This document shows, in pieces, positions 17,096 to 23,855 of a DNA stretch of 64,000 nt. Within the stretch, counting starts at the first letter, position 1. Every line of letters starts with the position of its first letter. This DNA comes from an uncultured delta proteobacterium (GTDB lineage Bacteria > Myxococcota_A > UBA9160 > JAFDET01): contig CAMYLJ010000028.1 in assembly GCA_947259215.1 (NCBI GenBank), positions 1 to 64,000 on the forward strand. The letters run 5' to 3'. The notes beneath the pieces were generated by a model. It saw only the letters and a program-made list of their open reading frames with translations, had not been told where the DNA came from and made no database searches. The translations under genes and the position numbers were made by a program.

Positions 17096-20000
17096 ATGAA
17101 CTGCCACCGCTGCGCCGCACCGGCCGCCGAAGATGCCTCGTTCTGCGCCGCCTGCGGCGCTGCCCTCCAGCTCGCCTGCGCGCGGTGTGGCCGGAGCGCC
17201 TCCCCGGACGACGCCTTCTGCGCCGGCTGCGGGGCTCCCCTCGAGCGGCACGCGGCCCGGGAGACGCCGCCGGCTGCACCGGCCGACTTCCAGGCCGGTG
17301 AGCGTCGGATCGCGACCGTGCTCTTCTCGGACCTCTCCGGCTACACCGCCCTGAACGAGCGGCTGGACCCGGAGGAGGTCGCCGAGATCATGGACGAGAT
17401 CAAGCGGGACGCGACCAGTCTGGTGGAGGCCTACGGCGGCGTCGTGAACCAGTTCGTGGGCGACGAGGTGATGGCGCTGTTCGGGCTGCCCACGGCCGAG
17501 GACGACGATCCGCGCCGCGCCGTGGCCGCAGCGCTCGAGCTGCACGAGCGGGTCCGCAGCCTCGATCGACGCCTGGGCCGCCGCCTGCCCGAGCCGCTGA
17601 GCATGCACACGGGCATCCAGACCGGCCTGCTGATCGCCCAGCTGCGCGATCAGCGCGACGGCCTCTACGGCGTCATTGGCGACACCGTGAACACCGCCGG
17701 TCGGCTGCTCAAGCTGGCCGGTCCCGACGAGGTGTGGATCGGAGCCGACACGTTCCGGCTGGTGAAGGGCTTCTTCGAAACGGAGTCGGGCGGCAGCCAC
17801 CCGGTGAAGGGCAAGGCCGAGCCGGTCGAGGCGTTCCGTGTGCTGGGCCGCCGGGCGGTGGGGAGCCGTTTCGAGGCGGCGCAGGAGCGCGGGCTGACGC
17901 CCCGCATCGGCCGTGCGAGCGAGCTGGCCCGGCTCGAGCAGGCCTTCGCTCGGGCCGCCGACGGCCGCGGGCAGGTGGTGACCCTGGTGGGCGAAGCCGG
18001 CGTGGGCAAGAGCCGCCTGGCGCACGATTTTCGCGGCGGGATCGACCCGGAGACGGCCTACGTCTTCGAGGGTCGCTGCCAGGCCTACGGCTCGGTCACC
18101 CCCTACCTCCCCTTCATCCAGGCGCTCCGATCCGGCGTGGGCGTGAGCGAGAGCGACACCGCCGAGGAGGTGGTGCGGAAGACGGCCGACGCGATCCTGG
18201 GCATCGACCCGTCGCTCCAGTCGTTTCTGCCCCTCTACCTCCAGCTGCTGTCCGCACCGAGCAGGGATCACCCGATCCCGGCCGAGATGGCCGGCGAGGA
18301 GCTCCCGGGCGCGATCCGCCAGGCCGTGGTGGCCCTGAACGTGGCGCTCTCGCAGCAGCGGCCCGTGGTCCTGCACCTCGAGGACTGGCACTGGGCGGAC
18401 GAAGCCTCGGACGGCACCTTCGCCAACCTGGCCCGGCATGTCCCGGAGCACCGCATCCTGATCGTGCTCAGCCATCGCCCGCAGCTGCGCCCGCAGTGGA
18501 CCGGCGTGAAGACGGACGAGATCGCGCTGCTGCCCTTCGACCGGGCCGACACGGCAGCCCTCGTGGCCCATTGCTTCGGCGCCGGTCAGGTGGAGGACGC
18601 GCTGGCCACGCGGATCCACGAGCGCACCCTGGGCAACCCCTTCTTCGTGGAGGAGATCTGCGTCTCCCTGGCCCAGTCGGACGCGCTGCGCCGGGAGGGC
18701 GACACGGTCGTGCCGGCGGACGAGCTGGCCAGCCTCGAGCTGCCCGAGAGCGTGCAGGCCGTGCTTCGCAGCCGCATGGACAAGCTGGAGCCGCGCGTGC
18801 GCGAGGTGTTGCGCTTCGCCTCCGTGATCGGGCGCGAGTTCCCGTTCGAGATTCTCTCGCGGCTGGTTCCGGACGGCTGGCCGACCCAGTCCCTGCTCAC
18901 CTCTCTCGAGCAGCTCGAGTTCGTGCAGCCGCTCCCCACCAGCGATGACCACGTCTACCGCTTCAAGCACGCGATCACCCAGGAGGTCGCGTACGGGACG
19001 CTGCTGCGACGCCGTCGCGCGGGCATCCACGGCAGGGTCGCCGAGCTGATCCAGGAGCTGGAGCGCGGCCGGCTGGAGGAGCACTACGAGTCCCTGGCCG
19101 AGCACTACCTGGCGGCCGGCGATGACGAACGGGCCCTGCAGTTCCTGGAGCGCGCGGGCGACAAGGCCGCCGCCAGCTACGCCATGCATCAGGCACGCGA
19201 GCACTACCGGCGCGCCGTCGAGCGGACCCTGGCCCTGGAGGGGGACGGCGCTCTCGCCCGCAGGCGTGTGGACCTGACGCTTCGCTACGCGGCCACCTGC
19301 CCCTTCAGCCCGTCGCTCGACCAGGTGGCGTTCCTGGAGACCGCGGTGCGCGAGGCGGAGGAGCTGGGCGAGCCCGCCCACGCCGTGCGCGCCCTCTACT
19401 GGATGTGCTGGATCTACTACGCCATCGGCGACCACCAGCGCGCGCTCGCGGAGGCCGGAAAGGCCATCGAGCGCGTGGCTCCGTTGGGCAACGACGACGT
19501 GACCGGCTCCTTCATGTGTCACCTGGGGGTCTGCTACGTGATCGCGCGGGACTTCGATCGTGCCGGGCCGATCCTGACCCAGGGGGTCGCTTTCCGGCGC
19601 CGCCAGGCCGAGGCCAGCGGGACGTCCCTGGGCGGCACTACGGCCTATGCCGTGGCCCAGCACGCCCTGCTCGAGGCGGACCGCGGCGAGTTCGCCGAGA
19701 GCGACCGCCTGATGGCCACGGCCCTGGAGATCGTCGGTGGCCTGGGACAGCGCTCCACCGAGAGCTCCGTGCGCATCACCATGGGCTTGATCGCCACCAT
19801 TCGGGGGGACTGGCAAGGCGCGGTGGCGGCGGCCCGGGAGGCACGGCTCCTCGCCCAGACCATGAACGCGCCCTACCACCTGGCCACCTGCGAGACCCTG
19901 GAGGGCTACGGCCGCTTCTGGCTCGGCGACCACGAGGCCGGTCAGGCCGCCCTGCGCCGCGGGCTCGACCAGCTCGAGCGCAGCGGGCTCCCCATGACCA

Positions 20001-20398
20001 AGACCTGGAGTCTCGCTTGCCTGGCGGACGCCCTGGCGGAGCTGGGCGCGCTGCACGAGGCCGAACGCCTGGCGGAAGCGGCCCTGGACCGCGGCCCCGC
20101 CGGGGACCGCCTGGGTGAGGACATCGCCGAGCGGGCCCTGCTGCGGATCGCCGGGCAGCGCGCGCCGGAGGAGCTGGAGTCCTCGGTGGCCTCCCTCCTG
20201 GCGAGCGCTGAGAGCCACGGCAGTCGGCGCGAGCTGGCCATCGCCGAGCTCTGCGCTGCCCAGGTGCTCCACGACGCGGAGCGGCCGGACGCCGCGCGCC
20301 GGCATCTGCGGCGGGCCCAGGCCGGGCTCGCCGCCCTGGACCTGCCCGCCCATCACCGGCAGGCCGGGAAACTCGAGCGCGCCCTCGGCGCCGACTAG
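17096..20398 (+). CDS. Zinc-ribbon / class-III cyclase / AAA-ATPase / TPR signalling protein
   Basis: The protein has 1100 residues from ATG 17096. Two zinc ribbons come first (C3/C6/C17/C20 and C28/C31/C42/C45). A class-III nucleotide cyclase homology domain follows at about 64-250: VLFSDLSGYT and GDEVMALFG supply the two metal Asp, and GDTVNTAGRL is conserved. A STAND-type ATPase has Walker A GEAGVGKS at about 298-306 and Walker B VVLHLEDWHWAD at about 425. The C-terminal 450 residues are helical TPR-like repeats. Such proteins couple protein or ligand sensing to cAMP or cGMP synthesis in the cytoplasm. The gene ends one base before the convergent P450 gene. The 286 bases before it (16810-17095) hold nothing recognised. 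Confidence 0.85.
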   Translation: MNCHRCAAPAAEDASFCAACGAALQLACARCGRSASPDDAFCAGCGAPLERHAARETPPAAPADFQAGERRIATVLFSDLSGYTALNERLDPEEVAEIMDEIKRDATSLVEAYGGVVNQFVGDEVMALFGLPTAEDDDPRRAVAAALELHERVRSLDRRLGRRLPEPLSMHTGIQTGLLIAQLRDQRDGLYGVIGDTVNTAGRLLKLAGPDEVWIGADTFRLVKGFFETESGGSHPVKGKAEPVEAFRVLGRRAVGSRFEAAQERGLTPRIGRASELARLEQAFARAADGRGQVVTLVGEAGVGKSRLAHDFRGGIDPETAYVFEGRCQAYGSVTPYLPFIQALRSGVGVSESDTAEEVVRKTADAILGIDPSLQSFLPLYLQLLSAPSRDHPIPAEMAGEELPGAIRQAVVALNVALSQQRPVVLHLEDWHWADEASDGTFANLARHVPEHRILIVLSHRPQLRPQWTGVKTDEIALLPFDRADTAALVAHCFGAGQVEDALATRIHERTLGNPFFVEEICVSLAQSDALRREGDTVVPADELASLELPESVQAVLRSRMDKLEPRVREVLRFASVIGREFPFEILSRLVPDGWPTQSLLTSLEQLEFVQPLPTSDDHVYRFKHAITQEVAYGTLLRRRRAGIHGRVAELIQELERGRLEEHYESLAEHYLAAGDDERALQFLERAGDKAAASYAMHQAREHYRRAVERTLALEGDGALARRRVDLTLRYAATCPFSPSLDQVAFLETAVREAEELGEPAHAVRALYWMCWIYYAIGDHQRALAEAGKAIERVAPLGNDDVTGSFMCHLGVCYVIARDFDRAGPILTQGVAFRRRQAEASGTSLGGTTAYAVAQHALLEADRGEFAESDRLMATALEIVGGLGQRSTESSVRITMGLIATIRGDWQGAVAAAREARLLAQTMNAPYHLATCETLEGYGRFWLGDHEAGQAALRRGLDQLERSGLPMTKTWSLACLADALAELGALHEAERLAEAALDRGPAGDRLGEDIAERALLRIAGQRAPEELESSVASLLASAESHGSRRELAIAELCAAQVLHDAERPDAARRHLRRAQAGLAALDLPAHHRQAGKLERALGAD

Positions 20399-20399
20399 C

Positions 20400-21731
20400 T
20401 CAGGGGCCGTCCCACTCGAGCTCCCAGCGGATCGGGAAGTATTTCTCCGTGACCCCGGTCCCGAACTCGAGCGTCGCGCCCGGAGCGGGTCGCAGACCCG
20501 GGAGCTTGAGGAGTGCCTTCGCGGTGTAGGTCAGCATGGAGATTCCGACGCCGCGGCCCAGGCACTCGTGCTGGCCCTGACCGAACATCACGTAGTTCCA
20601 GTCCGGCCGGCCGGGGCGGAAATCGTGGGGTTGATCCACGAACTCGGGATCCATCATGGCCGACGAGAGCAGCAGGACGAGCCGCGAGCCCTCGGGGATG
20701 AGGGTCTCCCGCGGCGTCCCCTTGGCGATCACGTAGTCCTGGTTCGCCACGCGGAACATGGTGGGTGGGCTCGGGGGTCCGAGTCGCGCCACCTCGAGCA
20801 TGCATTGGCGCAGCAGGGCGTCGTCGCCGTCGAGGGCCGCCTGGCGCGTCATCGCGAAGGCCTTGGGCGCGGTCACCTGGAGCCGCAGGAGCGTCGCGAT
20901 GGCGGCCACCAACATGCCCATCGGGGCGACGGTGGAGCCCAGGATCAGTCCGGCCAGGTTCCGGCGGATGCCCACGGGGTCGAAGCTCGTGGCCGGGTCC
21001 GCGAGCCACATGCGTAGGAGGCGGGTCAGCACGTCGTCCGGTGCGGGCTGCCCGGACTTGAGGAGATCGAGCCGGTCCTGGATGACCCGGTCGAGGTAGG
21101 CGGCGAAGTGCACGCCGCCCTGAGACGCCGTGGTCTTGATCGACCCCCGGAAGACGTCCGCATCCGTCCAGGAGTTGAAGATGTAGAGCACCGCGGCCTG
21201 CACCCAGCGGGTGTAGGCCGCGGCGTTCGGTCCCGGCACGCCGAAGTAGTGGCCCACGAAGCCCAGGGGGATCGCATAGGCCACCTCCTGCACCACATCG
21301 AAGGTCCCCTCGCGGGCGGCCGCCTCCACCGCCTGCTTCGCATACTTCTCGATCCAGCGCCCGAGCGCCGGCTGGCCGATGCCGGGGCACGCCAGGTGTA
21401 CGACGGCCGACGCGTGATCGTAGCGCGGGCCCGGGTCCATCCCGAGCATGAAGGCGCCCGTGATGTCGACCATGCGGTCCCCGTAAGGGGCGACCGAGAA
21501 GACTTCGTTGCGATCGAAGCCCTCCATGACGTCGCCGAAGCGCGACGCCAGGAAGCCCAGGGGCGTCTCGAAGACGGCGCCGTGATTGTGCGCGCGGAGC
21601 TCGTCGGCGAGCTGGGGCAGGAGTCCTCTTTCCATGTACATGAGGACGAGGTTGATCTGGTCCTCCCGGGACGCGGCCTCGAACTGCTCGACGAAGGCCC
21701 CCGGGGCGGGGGCGGTTGTCGGGGCGCTCAT
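20400..21731 (-). CDS. Cytochrome P450 with non-canonical I-helix
   Basis: The 443-residue protein has the heme-thiolate motif FGQGQHECLGRGV (Cys about residue 390). The I-helix segment LAGLILGSTVAPMG (about residue 260) lacks the acid-alcohol pair (D/E-T) that normal monooxygenase P450s use to protonate the bound oxygen. P450s that rearrange hydroperoxides (CYP74 type, and the P450 half of fungal Ppo oxygenases) also deviate here. The start overlaps the stop of the DyP peroxidase gene by ATGA (21728-21731), so the two are co-translated. No ferredoxin or reductase is nearby. It is proposed to act on a peroxide made by, or shared with, the peroxidase; this is inference. Confidence 0.85.
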   Translation of the reverse strand: MSAPTTAPAPGAFVEQFEAASREDQINLVLMYMERGLLPQLADELRAHNHGAVFETPLGFLASRFGDVMEGFDRNEVFSVAPYGDRMVDITGAFMLGMDPGPRYDHASAVVHLACPGIGQPALGRWIEKYAKQAVEAAAREGTFDVVQEVAYAIPLGFVGHYFGVPGPNAAAYTRWVQAAVLYIFNSWTDADVFRGSIKTTASQGGVHFAAYLDRVIQDRLDLLKSGQPAPDDVLTRLLRMWLADPATSFDPVGIRRNLAGLILGSTVAPMGMLVAAIATLLRLQVTAPKAFAMTRQAALDGDDALLRQCMLEVARLGPPSPPTMFRVANQDYVIAKGTPRETLIPEGSRLVLLLSSAMMDPEFVDQPHDFRPGRPDWNYVMFGQGQHECLGRGVGISMLTYTAKALLKLPGLRPAPGATLEFGTGVTEKYFPIRWELEWDGP

Positions 21732-23161
21732 CGGGTTCCTCTCTCCGGGGCGTCGACGGGTGCGCCCAGGCTGTCCAGGGCCTTGAGGCTTGGGACGAAG
21801 AAGTAGTCGCCGCCCTTCACGGTGACGAAGCGGGGCAGGTCGTAGAGGGTGGCGACGCATTGGCCCCGGGGAATCGAGAAGGTCGCCTGGAGCCGGCGAC
21901 TCTCGGGGCCCATGGTCTCGTTCGAGCCCGCGATCGGGTCGCGGTCCGAGCTCAGGCCGAAGCTTTCGTTGGCGGACCCCGTCCACACCGCCTGGACGAC
22001 CTCGAACTGGTCCATCAGGTTGGCGTTGAAGGCCCGGAAGTGGATGCCGCGGCGCTCGTCATCGTCCTCGGCCCCTTCCGGGAGCCACGGCCCATAGGGC
22101 TTGCTGCGGCGGATGATCCGGTGCGCCCCCGGGTCGATGACGCCCGCGTGCTTCTCCAGGAAGCGGTCGCGCGGGTTGGTCCGGCGGATGTGGGAGGAGT
22201 GGGGGACCTTTTCCCCGCGGCGGTCGTCGTCGAAGTAGCGGAAGTCGTTGTTGCGTTGGGGGTCCGCGGCCAGCGCCGGGTCGTCCCGATCCGGGGCCAG
22301 CTCCAGGGGGGCTCCGCTCCGCCAGCGCCCGACCATCTTGGCGGCCAGGAGCTCCTTGTCGCCGCCCACCACGTGGGCATTCGCGTCGATGAAGTCCCGG
22401 AAGCGCACCACGTCCTGCTCGAGCTTGCGGTAGGCCATGTATGTGCCGTTGTGGCGCAGCACGTCGGACTTCGGGCGCGTGGCGGTGCGGCCGTAGGCGT
22501 CCGGGTAGCCGAGCAGGAAGCAGCCCACCGGAATCGGGACCCAGCCGCCCCCCTCGCGGGGCGTGCCCGTCCCGGGATGGACGGGGCAGCCCACGCCCTC
22601 CACCCCGGGCTGGCCGATGCCGTCCATGAAGCCGAAGTGCTCCCGGGCAGGGGCGTGGGCGGGGCCGAAACCCGCCCCGTCCTGCTCGCAGATCAGCTCG
22701 ATGGCGCCGGACGCCCGGGCCATCGCCAGCACCTCGTCGCGGCGACCGGTCAGATCTTCCGGGCGGGCGGCCTGCACCAGGACCCAGACGTGGAGCTTGC
22801 GTTCTCCGAGCGGCGGATCCCACTGGCCGGGTGCGCTCGGGCCGTTGTCCCCCAGCAGCCCGGCACGCGCCGCCATGCCCTCGCGGAACTCCACGGGGAA
22901 GGACGCCAGGGCCGCGTCCTCTACGCCCAGGGCGTCGAGGCCGGGCCAGGTGAAGCCCAGGTTGAGGCGGGTGTCGGCCGCCTGCTCCTGAGCCTTCGCG
23001 TTCGTGACCCAGGGTCGGACTGCGCGCACGAAGGCCCGGCCCGCATCCACGCTCCCGATCGCGAAGAACAGGTGCTTCTCGAATTCGACCTCGTAGTCCT
23101 TGAAGATGCCGCCCTGGACGTCGCTGAGATCGACGGCGGGCTGGGTGGGCGTCTGCGGCAT
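21728..23161 (-). CDS. DyP-type heme peroxidase
   Basis: This 477-residue protein has the DyP ferredoxin-like double fold with the hallmark HFGFMDGIGQP (GxxDG, about residue 178), whose Asp is the distal acid-base residue. The proximal heme His falls in HSSHIRRTNPR (about residue 323). The N-terminal DLSDVQGGIFKDYE is the usual first strand. It has no signal peptide or Tat leader, so it appears cytoplasmic or encapsulin-free. It is 16 bases downstream of the 23178 gene and overlaps the P450 gene, making the middle gene of a three-gene operon. DyP enzymes use H2O2 to oxidise dyes, lignin models or lipids; the native substrate is unknown. Confidence 0.9.
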   Translation of the reverse strand: MPQTPTQPAVDLSDVQGGIFKDYEVEFEKHLFFAIGSVDAGRAFVRAVRPWVTNAKAQEQAADTRLNLGFTWPGLDALGVEDAALASFPVEFREGMAARAGLLGDNGPSAPGQWDPPLGERKLHVWVLVQAARPEDLTGRRDEVLAMARASGAIELICEQDGAGFGPAHAPAREHFGFMDGIGQPGVEGVGCPVHPGTGTPREGGGWVPIPVGCFLLGYPDAYGRTATRPKSDVLRHNGTYMAYRKLEQDVVRFRDFIDANAHVVGGDKELLAAKMVGRWRSGAPLELAPDRDDPALAADPQRNNDFRYFDDDRRGEKVPHSSHIRRTNPRDRFLEKHAGVIDPGAHRIIRRSKPYGPWLPEGAEDDDERRGIHFRAFNANLMDQFEVVQAVWTGSANESFGLSSDRDPIAGSNETMGPESRRLQATFSIPRGQCVATLYDLPRFVTVKGGDYFFVPSLKALDSLGAPVDAPERGTR

Positions 23162-23177
23162 GCTCGTGCCCTCCGCG

Positions 23178-23855
23178 CTACTCGCCCACGACCATGACGT
23201 CGATCTGGGCGGCCTCCCGCTTGAACCGGTCGTAGATCCGGACCAGCTGGGGAGGCCACTGGGAGCGGTCGACGGTCTGCACCTCGTGGTCGAAGGCGTC
23301 GAAGCGCTTCTTGAACTTCTTCAGCCACGCGATGTCGCGCACCGTCGTCTCCGGGATGTTCGGGAAGAACAGCGTCGTTTCGACCTGGTACTTGCGTACC
23401 CAGTCCCCGAAGTCCTGGAAGTCGTCGGTGCCGGGGTAACCGACGCAGTTGCGCCAGACCAGGTCCATCCAGGGCACCGCCTTCGGGTCCTGCGCCGTGG
23501 GCTTCCGGTTGGCGACGACGGCGAAGTCGCGCAGGTAGCGGTCCCAGCTGCCGTCGAAGTTCGAGCTGAAGAGCAGGCGCGCGTCATCGTCGATCAATAC
23601 CCAGCGGGCGAAGTGGATCGTCGCCATCTGGTTGAGGGCCGTGATCTCGCCGCGCTCGACGAAGCCCCTCACCAGCTCGAGCGCTTTGCGGAGGTTGTCC
23701 GCCCAGCGGACCTGCGGGAGCGCCGGATTGAAGAGCGTCGGGAAGTCGGGGTCGAGCTGCGTCGTCAACCCCTGCTTGATGGGCAGGAGCAGCGTCATCT
23801 CGCTGACGGCCCCGATGGTCTGACTCAGGGCTTTGCCGCCCAGGGGTGTGGTCAC
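23178..23855 (-). CDS. Unknown protein of the DyP/P450 operon (HFARW family)
   Basis: The 225-residue protein starts at GTG 23855; an internal ATG at 23798 is an alternative. It has the segments LLLPIKQGLTTQL, IHFARWVLIDDDARLLFSSN followed directly by FDGSWDRYLRDF, and a YPGTDDFQDFGDWV stretch near residue 145. From memory, small proteins with HFARW-x-V/L-D-D and L-L-F-x-S-N-F-D-G occur beside DyP and related peroxidases in other bacteria, often as a fold with two similar halves. No enzymatic motif is recognised. Being first in the operon and closely spaced, it may be an accessory or heme/substrate-handling subunit. The family is undescribed as far as can be told from sequence. Confidence 0.65.
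   Translation of the reverse strand: MTTPLGGKALSQTIGAVSEMTLLLPIKQGLTTQLDPDFPTLFNPALPQVRWADNLRKALELVRGFVERGEITALNQMATIHFARWVLIDDDARLLFSSNFDGSWDRYLRDFAVVANRKPTAQDPKAVPWMDLVWRNCVGYPGTDDFQDFGDWVRKYQVETTLFFPNIPETTVRDIAWLKKFKKRFDAFDHEVQTVDRSQWPPQLVRIYDRFKREAAQIDVMVVGE

Follow-up and report, generated by a model that had tools for sequence, protein, structure and literature searches.

In a stretch of 64,000 nucleotides from an uncultured delta proteobacterium (contig CAMYLJ010000028.1, hereafter the window), three genes encoding an HFARW-type protein, a DyP-type peroxidase (DyP) and a cytochrome P450 (P450) form one functional unit, of which a convergent cyclase/kinase-AAA-TPR regulator is the fourth conserved part. 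We propose, giving this reading an even chance, that the three proteins act as a complex (one polypeptide in relatives) under the adjacent regulator and run a peroxide-to-hydroperoxide cascade. Judged by its sequences, the system resembles the lipid-signal enzymes of fungi and animals and would be a bacterial counterpart not reported before. The features of the locus are the following:

23178 to 23855, minus strand: HFARW protein, 225 amino acids from a GTG codon, start uncertain
21728 to 23161, minus strand: DyP-type peroxidase, 477 amino acids, ATG start with GGAGGG upstream
22622 to 22624, minus strand: Asp180 of the DyP GXXDG motif, distal catalytic Asp
22190 to 22192, minus strand: DyP His324, proximal heme ligand
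22109 to 22111, minus strand: DyP Arg351 in IIRRSKPYG, taken as the distal Arg from the alignment
21728 to 21731, minus strand: ATGA overlap of the DyP stop and the P450 start
20400 to 21731, minus strand: cytochrome P450, 443 amino acids, without the acid-alcohol pair
20916 to 20939, minus strand: P450 I-helix motif GSTVAPMG, in which V-A replaces the acid-alcohol pair and is followed by Pro
20784 to 20795, minus strand: P450 K-helix ExxR (EVAR)
20562 to 20564, minus strand: P450 heme-ligand Cys390 (HECLG)
17096 to 20398, plus strand: convergent regulator, zinc ribbon - adenylate/guanylate cyclase - AAA_16 ATPase - TPR, about 1100 amino acids from the likely ATG

These coordinates bore out the first-pass annotation of this DNA, which had described three closely spaced genes with the last two overlapping by ATGA; 16 nucleotides lie between the HFARW and DyP genes. 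The same annotation had called the first gene undescribed, and the HFARW protein had indeed no match in Pfam, NCBIfam or PDB sequences. The host genome has a single HFARW gene, a single DyP of the type seen in the window and around two dozen matches to P450.

Conservation of the neighbourhood, which had been named as the test able to refute the system, was investigated by searching 237 genomes of the phylum for HFARW relatives and 379 with a P450 profile. The survey was extended by a scan of named genomes and a search of the order of one Polyangia match, and the sample comprised metagenome-assembled genomes and a plasmid collection biased to Alphaproteobacteria. HFARW relatives were found in 11 of the 237 genomes, and at 13 of 13 places a DyP either shared their reading frame or adjoined them. 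P450-family matches were found in 10 of the 379 genomes and were linked to HFARW and DyP in 10/10, counts that favour such members because the profile was built from DyP-linked P450s (G350, G369, G371, G330 and G259 are not among the profile members). The three families were thus found fused or adjacent across two phyla, and the system withstood this test. HFARW-DyP-P450 single reading frames of 1216-1553 amino acids were present in Myxococcota-type genomes and Alphaproteobacteria (OFTM107, G202, SZUA-336, Sandarakinorhabdus, Henriciella, Hyphomonas, G464 and G411), two genomes of the same order having frames of 1216 and 1377 amino acids. Three-gene operons occurred in G476 and Skermanella, a separate HFARW gene with a DyP-P450 fusion (an intermediate form) in some Polyangia, a DyP-P450 fusion in Sphingopyxis, and a reversed P450-HFARW-DyP fusion in Novosphingobium aromaticivorans, Pararhizobium and Sulfitobacter. 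Fusion of these families in lineages independent of one another rules out a chance gene order. The part-by-part distances of the four parts correlated with a Mantel r of 0.62-0.91 (11 loci), although among fused genes such a correlation partly reflects shared ancestry.

The regulator gene, which the first-pass annotation had not noticed, ends 1 nucleotide from the P450 stop, and at 13/13 loci of the P450 group described below as group A a regulator and the unit lie tail to tail. Their domain content, Pfam-tested at nine group A loci and the window, was of the cyclase-AAA_16-TPR type, with kinase-AAA_16-TPR in the Polyangia carrying the DyP-P450 fusion. The window regulator was not clearly more similar to the linked copies, as an ortholog would be, than to its paralogs (466 bits for the best linked one by blastp vs. 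436 bits for the best own paralog in a different search), so that only the adjacency of the regulator is claimed. Its class III cyclase domain scored to PycC models, as in Pycsar, from which the window differs by the AAA-TPR architecture, the common paralogs in the genome and the lack of any Pycsar effector match among the scanned window proteins. An anti-phage system was rejected: HFARW, DyP and P450 had no padloc match, and the cyclase and patatin matches reflect shared domains. Crp-type regulators were found nearby in Sandarakinorhabdus, Sphingopyxis and Pararhizobium, and a SARP/TPR-type regulator lies directly upstream of reversed P450-HFARW-DyP fusions (L052:5051-6739, L103:2003-3634).

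The AlphaFold2 (AF2) model of the HFARW protein contained a beta-alpha-beta-beta-alpha-beta domain with a predicted local distance difference test score (pLDDT) of 75. Its top Foldseek matches were mostly ferredoxin-like/dimeric alpha+beta-barrel proteins, but weak (best E 0.013). We have taken this as a weak, model-based prediction that HFARW is a ferredoxin-like/dimeric alpha+beta barrel domain, with the same superfamily fold as the DyP halves; matches to pectate lyase and occludin were at chance level and these relationships were dismissed. The linkage of HFARW was tightest to DyP and not to the P450, and HFARW was fused or adjacent to DyP also in Deinococcus, Nitrososphaera, Bacteroidota and Alphaproteobacteria, including HFARW-DyP pairs in Nitrososphaera-type archaea and Agaribacillus. 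HFARW is an unnamed protein family present in bacteria and archaea, which we propose to be an obligate partner of DyP. Tandem HFARW domains split by hydrophobic segments were seen at L050:2706-4382 and L103:3691-8553, suggestive of membrane anchoring.

The peroxidase was assigned by scores above the cut-offs of PF21105 (41.2 vs. 27.5), PF20628 (22.3 vs. 20) and TIGR01413 (116.9 vs. 100.5) and by Asp180 of GXXDG, proximal His324 and distal Arg351, all present. The catalytic Asp, the His and the RR-Arg were conserved in the alignment of 15 DyPs. The nearest solved DyP was DrDyP of Deinococcus radiodurans (8re2/8re3, E 2.9e-76), which is reported to be inactive at pH 7.5 with a six-coordinate low-spin heme; the authors raise the question of its control by other proteins (PMC10820274), and neither an operon nor a partner is mentioned in the searched text of that paper. 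The DrDyP gene of D. radiodurans follows an HFARW gene at a distance of 1 nucleotide (L042:7812-9918). Since DrDyP is inactive alone at neutral pH and has this gene directly upstream, HFARW would be a testable missing partner. The D. radiodurans locus differs from the window in having no adjoining P450, a catalase-family third gene and GXXDM instead of GXXDG.

The P450 scored above the PF00067 cut-off (49.8 vs. 22.8 bits, 2.9e-13), with its heme Cys390 loop FGQGQHECLG (FxxGxHxCxG) and ExxR (EVAR) intact. Alignment to 4mm0 and 24 relatives placed Val at the acid and Ala at the alcohol position of the I-helix (NLAGLILGSTVAPMG). The acid-alcohol pair expected of an O2-dependent class I P450 is therefore replaced by V-A, and the canonical pattern is matched by at least 15 of the remaining P450s in the window genome. 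Two statements of the first-pass annotation were confirmed here, namely the loss of this pair and the absence of a nearby redox partner, as neither ferredoxin nor reductase was found among about 30 neighbouring genes tested at this and related loci. The P450 model was poor (pLDDT 59) and serves only to confirm the P450 fold; plant allene oxide synthase (AOS) and hydroperoxide lyase (CYP74) were absent among the PDB matches listed for the P450.

A P450 tree built without the I-helix columns split the 13 regulator-linked P450s, including that of the window (group A), from 12 others with 99/98 support. Both acid and alcohol were absent in 13/13 group A members (V-A in the window and G-P, P-P, A-P or V-P elsewhere), and a helix-breaking Pro recurred at or beside the O2 site. 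The non-A group included reversed or tandem-HFARW systems with P-T, P-Q, D-T or E-T, together with the P450 relatives whose neighbour is a RoxA-like diheme or an animal-heme peroxidase and which kept E-T (5/5). As far as these alignments go, it is the regulator-linked group A that is marked by the missing acid-alcohol pair.

This loss bears on the reading of the P450 as an ordinary O2-dependent monooxygenase served by a remote ferredoxin system, with DyP removing the H2O2 from uncoupling. Class I P450s commonly lack a nearby redox partner, the window P450 has its Cys and ExxR, and some DyP-linked relatives retain E-T or D-T. The disappearance of both residues in the whole of group A, over two phyla, argues against it, as do the covalent fusion to DyP, the presence of a ferredoxin domain in no fusion and the ExxR motif, which has lost its Arg or Glu in most triple fusions. 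We consider this reading unlikely. An H2O2-driven peroxygenase resembling CYP152, which would hydroxylate a fatty acid with H2O2 while DyP and HFARW tune local peroxide or consume its excess, would fit the missing acid, the Pro that stands in or beside the place of the Thr, and the redox partner that was not found; peroxygenases lack the pair (PMC10988616). We rate it as somewhat unlikely, because the Arg of the CYP152 Arg-Pro pair is missing from both the window (V-A-P) and its relatives, a peroxidase on the same polypeptide would compete for H2O2 and other P450s are nearer in sequence than the CYP152s. The degenerate I-helix, the K-helix that is degenerate in the fusions and a weak similarity of the window P450 to TIGR04515 could also point to a heme protein without catalysis of its own, there to stabilise or activate a partner in the manner of the P450-derived glycosyltransferase activators. 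To our knowledge, however, those activators lack the heme-ligand Cys, which the window P450 has and which, with the preceding His, is kept in 25/25 aligned P450s, making such a role highly improbable.

Clues to the substrate came from the relatives. A patatin phospholipase is fused ahead of HFARW-DyP-P450 in G464 (PF01734, 1.9e-22) and a patatin gene lies directly upstream of the unit in G371. A mini-catalase occupies the P450 slot in other lineages, as a fused domain in L021 and as an operon gene in Deinococcus and in Rhodococcus, where a 4-nucleotide overlap is again seen in Rhodococcus; catalase-like domains or genes accompany HFARW-DyP at L021:7805-11710, L016:4551-8654 and L104:5941-9223, and 3e4w is the PDB entry that the L021 domain matches best. 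In Novosphingobium, HFARW-DyP has oleate hydratase and acyl-CoA genes in its vicinity. The patatin fusion or upstream gene in two lineages, together with the mini-catalase swaps, makes fatty-acid hydroperoxides the best guess, and with the RoxA-like enzymes described below these clues, none of which lies at the window locus, favour unsaturated acyl chains and their hydroperoxides as the substrate. DyP, mini-catalase and P450 all handle peroxides, and D. radiodurans has an HFARW-DyP-catalase operon, which would also suit a module for peroxide stress or lipid-hydroperoxide detoxification, neither biosynthetic nor signalling. Yet the dedicated cyclase/kinase-AAA-TPR regulator and the patatin fusion suggest a controlled, substrate-specific pathway, and the sporadic distribution is unlike that of housekeeping stress genes; we regard detoxification as quite improbable.

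In the cascade that we propose, HFARW would dock on DyP, activating it or presenting substrate, and DyP would oxidise an unsaturated acyl chain with the help of a peroxide, yielding either a hydroperoxide or a radical. The P450, devoid of O2 activation and of an electron-transfer partner, would cleave the hydroperoxide O-O bond and rearrange or hydroxylate the product, as do the fungal dioxygenase-P450 fusions (DOX-CYP), CYP74 or prostacyclin synthase. In some lineages a patatin would release the acyl substrate. The first-pass annotation had suggested a peroxide-driven logic like that of fungal Ppo enzymes, with a first protein that could bind the substrate or heme, and this reading is partly supported here. 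The gene linkage, the loss of the pair in the whole of group A, the peroxidase-linked relatives, the patatin fusions and the mini-catalase swaps speak for it; what we infer is the use of peroxide by the P450 and, more broadly, the peroxide dependence, the acyl substrate, the direction of transfer and the role of HFARW. A more far-reaching version, which we offer only tentatively, would be a lipid-mediator cascade without COX/LOX parts, made of patatin, an HFARW-activated DyP, a hydroperoxide-processing P450 and a cyclic-nucleotide or kinase regulator, the enzymes in some lineages sharing a single polypeptide, with HFARW as the missing activator of a DyP class now regarded as inactive at physiological pH.

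Several observations weigh against the proposed cascade. DyPs are not established as fatty-acid dioxygenases, and the window locus offers no substrate gene, with no patatin among the tested neighbours. The HFARW fold matches are weak, the Mantel correlation has its ancestral component, and, the P450 model being poor, the I-helix was assigned from the sequence alignment. Outside group A, D-T or E-T persists in two DyP-linked P450s (L064:6555-9407, L102:1944-3197), and in four others Pro takes the place of the acid while Thr remains (L052, L053, L065, L103), so that a P450 can be linked to a peroxidase and still have the pair. Finally, the window genome encodes about a dozen full-length paralogs of the regulator; by our own estimate this puts chance adjacency at roughly 0.1-0.5% for one locus and makes it negligible for 13. 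Acid-alcohol loss as a plain mark of peroxidase linkage was ruled out by L064, L102 and the E-T of the relatives linked to RoxA-like or animal-heme peroxidases. The L064 and L102 P450s constitute natural controls for the mechanism.

Among known systems, the fungal DOX-CYP enzymes (Ppo/linoleate diol, allene oxide and epoxy alcohol synthases) are similar in joining a heme peroxidase-type domain to a self-sufficient P450 with an altered I-helix and an HxCxG Cys loop (PMC13049297). In the I-helix the fungal 9-AOS has TPxG or (V/A)PxT, to be compared with APMG in the window. The window peroxidase, however, is a DyP (alpha+beta barrel) and not a PF03098 protein, and for this reason the system is not a member of the fungal family; it is also bacterial, with an extra HFARW domain and the cyclase/kinase-AAA-TPR regulator. 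CYP152, CYP74 and CYP8A1 likewise use or rearrange peroxides without a working acid-alcohol pair, but do not appear close in sequence. The window P450 has neither the Arg-Pro nor the I-helix Asn; lacking Arg-Pro it is not a CYP152, and lacking the acid-alcohol pair it is not a normal class I monooxygenase. Mini-catalases and the coral allene oxide synthase (3e4w, MAP-2744c family) parallel the alternative third heme protein fused to or adjoining HFARW-DyP, whereas their catalase fold is absent from the window locus.

Neither DyP-P450 fusions nor HFARW were described in the open PMC full texts searched (subscription literature lay outside this search), and one survey of alphaproteobacterial P450s made no mention of the fusions. 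If the proposal is right, bacteria evolved anew, starting from DyP, the kind of peroxidase-P450 hydroperoxide cascade that fungi and animals run with a COX-type partner, and DyPs would gain a physiological role. DrDyP (PMC10820274) would then be inactive alone because its HFARW gene neighbour was left out, which is directly testable. Self-contained multi-heme fusions would also be of biocatalytic use.

Related P450s were also found beside other heme oxygenases or peroxidases in Methylobacterium, Bradyrhizobium, Rhizobium and Sinorhizobium, but these P450s keep Glu-Thr and have no HFARW or DyP. They lie near a RoxA-like diheme protein at L046:2790-7245, L047:2806-7248 and L049:3739-7098; RoxA-like enzymes of P. 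aeruginosa yield a fatty-acid hydroperoxide and diol (PMC4496055). An animal-heme peroxidase (PF03098) adjoins the P450 in Rhizobium etli (L048:5998-8900) and Sinorhizobium medicae (L051:5995-8912), possibly a Ppo-like bacterial pair. An oleate hydratase gene lies near the Bradyrhizobium P450 copy.

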